Origin: Collinsella sp. An2
GTDB taxonomy: Bacteria; Actinomycetota; Coriobacteriia; Coriobacteriales; Coriobacteriaceae
DNA length: 41,697 nucleotides
Direction of reading: 5' to 3'
Assembly (NCBI RefSeq): GCF_002160065.1
Contig: NZ_NFJW01000017.1
Span: 1-41,697, forward strand
Below the pieces are notes generated by a model. The model did no database searches, was not told where the DNA came from, and saw only the letters and a list, made by a program, of their open reading frames with translations. A program made the position numbers and the translations under genes. Within the stretch, counting starts at the first letter, position 1. Each line of letters begins with the position of its first letter. Below are positions 4,966-5,922 of the stretch, piece by piece.

Positions 4966-5107
4966 ATGCCGCTCTAGAGTGCACGCAGACGCCCCCGGCT
5001 CCCGACGACGAGTGGCCCGTCCGCGGCGCACGCCTCTTTCGACAGGGCCATTCACCCGTGGCGCATGGCCCAGAGGATGCGATTTAAAGGCTCGTGACAT
5101 AGCTCCC

Positions 5108-5258
5108 GAAAAACTCGTTTCGGTTTTATGCAGTTAAAAATCAAAACACCGAGTAGAGGGCCCAATTGCACCAACAAAACCCCTGGATTCGCGGCGTCGA
5201 CACGATGGTCTACTCGTCAAATTGGAAATTAACTGCATAAAAACGAAACGAGTTTTTC
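5108..5258. repeat. MITE-like element with 30-bp terminal inverted repeats
   Basis: The arms 5108-5137 and 5229-5258 are inverse complements at 29 of 30 positions. The arms start GAAAAACTCGTTTC and end GCAGTTAA. Inside lies a second inverted pair (GAGTAGA near 5151 with TCTACTC near 5210). The 151-bp unit has no gene, is more AT-rich than its surroundings, and has the form of a miniature inverted-repeat element. No clear target-site duplication is visible. It could also stop the transcript of the HAD gene. Confidence 0.65.
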
Positions 5259-5314
5259 AATGCCATAAAAAGACCCACTGGAAACGGTTCAAAAAGCCCT
5301 TGATTGCACCACCC

Positions 5315-5498
5315 TGAAGTTACGAGCACGATTCCGAAAATACGAGCACCTTCCCGAAGTTGCGAACACGATTCCAAAATTGATAGAGCTTTTCGTCCAA
5401 AAACACCTTGAAAACAGGGGTGGAATGGCCGAATCGCGCACGTAACTTTAAGCGGGCGTACGCATTTTCAATCGAGCGCACGCAACTTCAAGCAGACG
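5315..5498. repeat. Head-to-head tandem repeat block
   Basis: Three 20-bp units run in tandem at 5315-5334, 5335-5354 and 5355-5374 (core GAAGTTACGAGCACGATTC). After a 55-base centre, at least three related units of 20-24 bp follow in the opposite direction at 5429-5498 (core CGCACGCAACTTCAAGC). The whole could fold as one long imperfect hairpin. No gene is seen in it. It lies just before the C-box of the XRE gene. Confidence 0.6.
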
Positions 5499-5587
5499 CA
5501 TGGAGCGCTACTCGGCTGTGCGCAATATTGACCGACGTGTCTTTCAGGATGGCCAACTCAACGCCATGCGTCCATCCTGCGTTGTAG

Positions 5588-5642
5588 AGACTTATTGTCT
5601 GTAGACCATCTGTCGGCATTCCTGGATATTCCTTCGCGAAGG
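5588..5642 (+). promoter_or_regulatory. C-box-like double operator and promoter
   Basis: Two palindromic sites lie side by side: AGACTTATTGTCT (5588-5600, perfect dyad) and AGACCATCTGTC (5603-5614), separated by GT. This matches the layout of C-boxes of restriction-modification controller genes (GACT...GTC repeated, joined by GT). A possible -35 (TAGACC, 5602-5607) overlaps the second site and sits 17 bases from a possible -10 (GATATT, 5625-5630), as expected if the distal site activates and the proximal site represses. A perfect 12-bp palindrome (5631-5642) covers the likely start of the transcript and touches the ribosome site. Confidence 0.65.
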
Positions 5643-5649
5643 GGTACCC

Positions 5650-5922
5650 ATGAATGTTATTCACGTGTTTGCCAGCAATGTTCGGATGTATCGAAAGCGC
5701 CTCGGCCTTTCGCAGGAGGCGTTTGCCGAAAAATGCGGCCTGCATCGCACCTACATCAGCTCGCTTGAGCGTGAAAAGCGGAGTATCTCACTCAAGAACA
5801 TCCAACTTATCGCCGAGGCGCTCGGCATAGAACCGTATCGCCTCTTCATTGAGCACGACTCTCCCGCCGACCTCGACGCCGAGGACGCCCTGTTTGCCGA
5901 CCGAACCCATAAGCAGCAATAA
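5650..5922 (+). CDS. XRE-family regulator resembling an R-M controller (C) protein
   Basis: A 90-residue protein that is almost wholly one helix-turn-helix domain (residues 6-66). The recognition region HRTYISSLEREKRSISL is very like that of restriction-modification controller proteins, which share RTYIS-x-x-ER and a following Arg. Such proteins are 75-100 residues, act as dimers, and bind a double C-box to control their own gene and the nuclease gene. A matching double operator lies 36 bases before the start. No methyltransferase or nuclease gene is in the window, so this may be an orphan left from a lost system or one that controls a distant target. The ATG at 5650 is preceded by GAAGGGG. 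A general SinR-like role is the main alternative. Confidence 0.85.
   Translation: MNVIHVFASNVRMYRKRLGLSQEAFAEKCGLHRTYISSLEREKRSISLKNIQLIAEALGIEPYRLFIEHDSPADLDAEDALFADRTHKQQ

Follow-up and report, generated by a model that had tools for sequence, protein, structure and literature searches.

Why would a gut bacterium carry the controller (C) gene of a restriction-modification (R-M) system, along with its operator, where there is no R-M system beside that gene for it to control? C proteins are commonly regarded as R-M components, with C dimers activating their own promoter from a left operator (O_L) and then repressing that promoter once a right operator (O_R) is filled. The locus at issue lies in what is here called the window, i.e., the whole stretch of DNA analysed, which is an entire contig (C9; 41,697 bp) from a genome of 2.54 Mb that is in 46 contigs and 99.9% complete. 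An initial annotation saw there an orphan R-M controller with an intact C-box, and offered that this switch may have been kept after loss of its R-M system, may protect the cell against incoming R-M systems of the same specificity, or may govern a distant target. The features involved are as follows, by position in the window.

5000..5900, no strand: low-GC patch (about 45-54%, with flanks at about 60-67%) in which the repeats and the C gene lie.
5587..5618, + strand: whole C-box, 32 bp, GAGACTTATTGTCTGTAGACCATCTGTCGGCA, as modelled from relatives (operator model R1, E 1.8e-5).
5589..5599, + strand: left operator, O_L, GACTTATTGTC (the initial annotation having it as AGACTTATTGTCT, with A and T added at the ends), as aligned with 61 Clostridial C-boxes.
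5602..5607, + strand: putative -35, TAGACC, matching at 4/6, with TAGAC conserved in relatives.
5604..5614, + strand: right operator, O_R, GACCATCTGTC, overlapping the -35, from the sequence and its alignment to Clostridial C-boxes.
5625..5630, + strand: putative weak -10, GATATT, matching at 4/6, with 17-bp spacing.
5638..5644, + strand: likely Shine-Dalgarno, GAAGGGG, as judged from the sequence.
5650..5922, + strand: orphan C-protein (XRE/HTH_3) gene, 90 aa, ATG start, from ORF call, homology and AlphaFold model.

The encoded protein is by sequence and fold a true homologue of R-M controllers, that is, a member of the C-protein family. It belongs to Pfam HTH_3 (E 1.1e-17), and the solved sequences closest to it are those of Neisseria NHTF (1.2e-13), C.BclI (5.8e-10), C.AhdI (1.8e-9) and C.Esp1396I (5.4e-7), the same four proteins being the top Foldseek matches to its AlphaFold model (mean pLDDT 86). 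With C.Esp1396I, residues R35, T36 and R46 contact bases while Y37 contacts the DNA backbone (PMC4041747), and ungapped alignment places R33, T34, Y35 and R44 of the window protein at these positions, all four being invariant across 18 aligned relatives. The position of C.Esp1396I S52 is occupied instead by N50, as it is in every aligned relative. Of the properties by which C proteins are recognized, small XRE HTH homology, contact residues and a tandem C-box over the -35 all are found here, while a linked nuclease and methyltransferase are not.

Two other assignments were considered and rejected. As an antitoxin of a type II toxin-antitoxin pair (HipB/HigA kinds), the protein falls short of every curated cut-off, with a best NCBIfam score of 45.5 versus a cut-off of 71.65, and no partner gene is adjacent. 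As for a virus-borne origin, no relatives of the gene were found in the viral contigs searched, in which there were 14 17-mer matches, and matches to phages are weak, at 48% identity or less.

The DNA preceding the gene contains two dyads, exactly as had been described. The window has a single occurrence of their combined pattern, GAC-N5-GTC-N4-GAC-N5-GTC, versus about 0.02 expected per strand, as based on first-order Markov simulation, with O_L and O_R separated by 15 bp, start to start, and with TGTA between them. Given a weight matrix derived from the 61 Clostridial sites, positions 5587-5618 score 27.8 whereas -13.8 is the best that any other site of the 41.7-kb window attains; z is 10.8 over shuffles of the site's own upstream region. 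The distance from C-box to ATG, 31 bp, lies within the Clostridial range of 30-55 (median 34). As judged by sequence comparison this is a true C-box. Covariation between the arms of O_L, as assessed by eye, is inconsistent.

That the second dyad lies over a possible -35 is borne out as well, with TAGACC overlapping O_R in an arrangement which is seen also in the Clostridial set. The right dyad of Esp1396I likewise overlaps the -35 (PMC3758141). Within the Clostridial set a -10 box is found 17-18 bp past TAGAC, with a mean best match of 5.0/6 versus 2.9 at control positions. A general promoter scan found nothing, which, together with the weakness of the putative -10, is as expected should this promoter be activator-dependent or very weak. 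GAC and GTC are what C.Esp1396I contacts specifically (PMC3758141), and the window operator possesses this canonical form in four of four half-sites, versus no more than two for any one of the 61 R-M operators. Strong binding thus is predicted at both dyads, and from such tight binding strong self-repression would be expected to follow. The resemblance to the C.BclI, C.AhdI and C.Esp1396I systems consists of a small XRE dimer fold, an RTYIS recognition helix with identical base-contact residues, and a tandem C-box of 15-bp separation with its right dyad over the -35. The window locus differs from those systems in having no nuclease or methyltransferase gene, in being monocistronic (i.e., no co-transcribed partner lies downstream), and in both of its dyads being fully canonical.

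The solitude of the gene, which had been noted from the start, extends well past its immediate flanks. There is no methyltransferase in the 41.7-kb window and no nuclease near the C gene, and a translated search around the gene for R-M remnants, employing the neighbour proteins of relatives, matched only the C gene itself. The genome's only Type II R-M system found lies on contig C17 and pairs an unrelated C5 methyltransferase with a MutH/Sau3AI-like nuclease, and a genome-wide search that covered C5 and N4/N6 methyltransferases found none of the N4/N6 kind. Model R1, built from 28 operators, has a single match in this genome (G000), which is the gene's own site, with none further up to E = 5, and near matches to the C-box core are at background level. 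In each of three other genomes (G235, G259, G239) R1 likewise matches only the C gene's own site. The genome scan for double dyads and methyltransferases that the initial annotation had proposed returns one double dyad and one C5 methyltransferase, and its description of the gene as an orphan controller with an intact C-box stands. Its suggestion of a distant target does not fare so well given this lack of a full C-box elsewhere, though it is possible that the protein controls a single weak dyad at some other position. With neither a partner gene nor a second C-box, the only full-operator target in a resting cell would be the gene's own promoter.

The C17 system (L174:186-3163) has its C5 methyltransferase and nuclease genes arranged divergently, both with TACAATAGA at the likely -10. 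Might the window protein control this system in trans? That it is the only Type II R-M system found in the genome, and that two TACAATAGA boxes, with a loose resemblance to part of the C-box, lie in its divergent promoter region, speak for such control, but model R1 finds no C-box there and no C-linked system examined in detail is of such a kind, leaving trans-control very improbable. The divergent promoter itself was rejected as a target, as the TACAAT boxes resemble -10 elements and lie where those of both genes would be expected.

If the switch had been kept following local loss of an R-M system, then traces of that system might be sought at the same site in relatives. The window and congeners share one gene order, namely citrate synthase, HAD hydrolase, substrate-binding protein, ABC permease/ATPase, adenine deaminase, with the window C gene sitting between the HAD hydrolase and the NMT1-like binding protein of the ABC transporter. 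At that position congener G002 possesses a 0.5-kb gap between the HAD and binding-protein genes, while congener G001 along with G057, G062 and G066 possess, by reading of the sequence, a NuoF/NuoG-like pair. At loci L188, L190, L191 and L192 the pair, of about 600 aa each, has the binding-protein gene on one side and the HAD or citrate synthase gene on the other. The site is variable within the family, and no R-M system is present at the syntenic position in any relative examined. Nor is there a close homologue of the window C gene in the other 66 family genomes.

The low-GC patch at 5000..5900 is likely acquired DNA. Within it, and beside the C gene, is a 151-bp palindromic element (5108-5258) whose 50-nt arms are 80% complementary and for which the genome has related copies at about 30 positions, i.e., a MITE- or REP-like family. 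Between this palindrome and the C-box are three direct repeats of ACGAGCACGATTCCGAA type, spaced by 20 bp (5306-5379). Given the patch, it is more likely that the gene arrived alone, or arrived and then lost its partners without trace. Retention after loss of a resident R-M system finds no direct support, there being neither remnants around the gene nor R-M genes at the syntenic site. The window gene consequently is best seen as acquired rather than as what is left of an R-M system once resident there, with loss of partners after arrival possible.

An acquired gene could be simply a recent passenger or relic, one transferred with or without R-M partners and still intact for lack of time. The patch with, next to it, a palindromic repeat present in about 30 copies, the gene's absence from the genus and family, and a syntenic site without R-M genes all are consistent with this. 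Yet the ORF, contact residues, operator and spacing are intact at about 30-45% protein divergence from nearest relatives, the symmetry of the operator exceeds that seen in every R-M-linked relative, and other members of the order maintain orphans of a similar kind. On balance, passenger status is distinctly unlikely.

Those other orphans are informative. The window's own order provides 23 relatives, with none of the 23 having a methyltransferase nearby, and a genome search finds 12 of them to share about 60% identity or more with the window protein. At least eight of these 12 adjoin rplQ/CbiQ and alanine-racemase (alr)/moeA genes, in several genera, and one genus, g52, possesses exactly one copy in each of six species out of six. 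Among orphans of the rplQ/CbiQ/alr locus, dN/dS is 0.06-0.09 where dS is measurable, so that these sister orphans are kept by selection. Selection is measured on them rather than on the window gene, for which neither genus nor family offers a syntenic orthologue. Eleven of the closer orphan genes (L151-L158, L160-L162) resemble the window gene in having no R-M genes nearby and in encoding proteins that are 50-66% identical to its own, but differ from it in locus (rplQ/CbiQ/alr/moeA or other). Two of these, L151 and L152, have a C-box, as does the window, but unlike the window have added a third dyad to it. In G259 a second small XRE gene lies directly 3' of the orphan C gene (L151:2618-2833). 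The remaining 11, more distant order relatives (L163-L173; 41-54% identity) also are orphans, many with C-terminal extensions of up to about 200 aa and several with a variant tandem operator of the GCTACTTATATTCTGTCGATT kind.

The g52 orphans differ from the window gene as well in that their C-box no longer is recognizable even as the protein has been kept, which argues that at least these act on something else. Upstream of five of them (L155, L156, L160, L161, L162), the C-box is replaced by a GCGCTTTAGCCAAA-like element that is partly an inverted repeat. Such retention of the protein, under purifying selection following C-box loss, invites the idea that the window gene too is a domesticated chromosomal autorepressor, that is, a C-derived XRE regulator, without R-M link, of itself and of one or more host genes via single or diverged dyads. 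NHTF, an XRE auto-feedback repressor of itself and of glnD (PMC5722371), offers precedent, and is the window protein's closest solved homologue by fold as well as by sequence (3VK0; E as given above). Four canonical half-sites, in addition, are more in keeping with steady autorepression than with delayed switching. The window gene resembles NHTF in being stand-alone. NHTF, however, represses a neighbour, glnD, and is not known to use a window-type C-box, while neither neighbour of the window gene has an operator before it. Against domestication too are the lack of a second operator in the genome, whether by model or by core pattern, and that the flanking HAD and NMT1-like genes, which have no C-box, are ancestral neighbours, being present as well in relatives that have no C gene. 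This reading is the strongest of the rivals but still somewhat unlikely.

Searching 397 genomes of the order with model R1 yields four sites at E 0.02 or less, of which three belong to orphans (G000, G259, G239) and none to an R-M system, no R-M system with this C-box being found among those genomes. The fourth, in G235 and belonging to one of the 12 closer relatives above, is a consensus C-box which, with its C gene, heads a three-gene ABC-3C operon:

L159:4066-7268: ABC-3C operon, SMEK_N plus CTD10, MC6 and DUF2326.

The C protein there appears to govern a defence operon that is not R-M. The selection seen on lone switches of related bacteria suggests for these a role of their own, perhaps that of excluding incoming systems which possess the same switch.

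Where, then, are such systems? A scan of genome contigs gave 80 loci, 62 of them Clostridial (or other Firmicute), with C proteins 55-71% identical to that of the window. GTTACTTATTGTATGTAGACTTATTGTATTCA or a close variant is found 30-55 bp upstream of the start codon in 61 of these 62. A methyltransferase was identified by phmmer within 6 kb in 56 of the 62, and on reading in two more (L065, L024), making for an R-M methyltransferase in all 58 Clostridial loci with enough flank; the other four end about 0.9 kb or less downstream. The systems are diverse: RE_MjaI is found alongside an N4/N6 methyltransferase and MvaI/BcnI alongside another methyltransferase, and there are C5 enzymes and more. 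By blastp this one C-box is common to 15 or more unrelated clusters of downstream genes, as well as to five of methyltransferases. A homologue of the group is found with an N-6 methylase on the conjugative plasmid pAPRE01 and another, with an MvaI/BcnI nuclease and a methyltransferase, on a mobilizable plasmid of Lactococcus, and these two indicate that such systems are mobile. Clostridial and plasmid loci (L010-L073, pAPRE01, the Lactococcus plasmid) thus share with the window its 32-bp operator and a protein of 55-71% identity, but their C gene heads an operon with a nuclease or methyltransferase whereas the window gene is alone. In the protein tree nearly all of the Clostridial R-M-linked genes form one supported group (99/92), with the window and other Coriobacterial genes outside of it, though this tree has too few columns for rooting or for telling if R-M-linked genes gave rise to the orphans.

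A resident, self-regulated C protein, combined with an operator that is common to mobile R-M systems of many specificities, makes regulatory exclusion the best inference. Tentatively, that is, the window gene would be a stand-alone self-regulated controller whose likeliest consequence is the mistiming of incoming R-M systems that share its C-box. One dimer would bind O_L and a second, cooperatively, O_R over the -35, with transcription of the gene first raised and then shut off such that the protein is held at a set level. Were DNA of a C-controlled R-M system of the same C-box group then to enter, the resident protein could act at once on its C/REase promoter. The nuclease would be mistimed as a consequence, with premature activation killing the recipient and thereby excluding the system, or with the nuclease instead repressed. 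DNA binding, autoregulation and exclusion by the window protein all are inferences here. Protection against incoming systems, as initially proposed, thus is possible and indeed the leading reading, but what must match is the C-box and not, as had been supposed, the restriction specificity, since the one C-box serves so many different downstream and methyltransferase clusters. As order genomes without an orphan C gene equally lack C-box R-M systems (397 genomes), no protective association is one that can be shown.

C-mediated mutual exclusion is an old laboratory phenomenon. A broader proposition is that Coriobacteria keep stand-alone C genes, some of them passed down vertically through many speciations, as an exclusion device against mobile R-M systems of the same C-box, whatever their specificity; this is unlikely as matters stand. 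If true, the device would give its host a regulatory form of immunity to selfish R-M systems. The literature searched, of which the main C-protein survey (Sorokin 2009) was not part, describes no orphan or solitary C-protein lineage. With lone C genes under purifying selection, and with their operator driving in neighbouring gut bacteria a large number of unrelated mobile R-M systems as well as, in one case, an ABC-3C defence operon, mutual exclusion can now be tested as a strategy that hosts employ naturally. Should exclusion be wrong, these genes still would show a route from selfish-element regulator to host gene.
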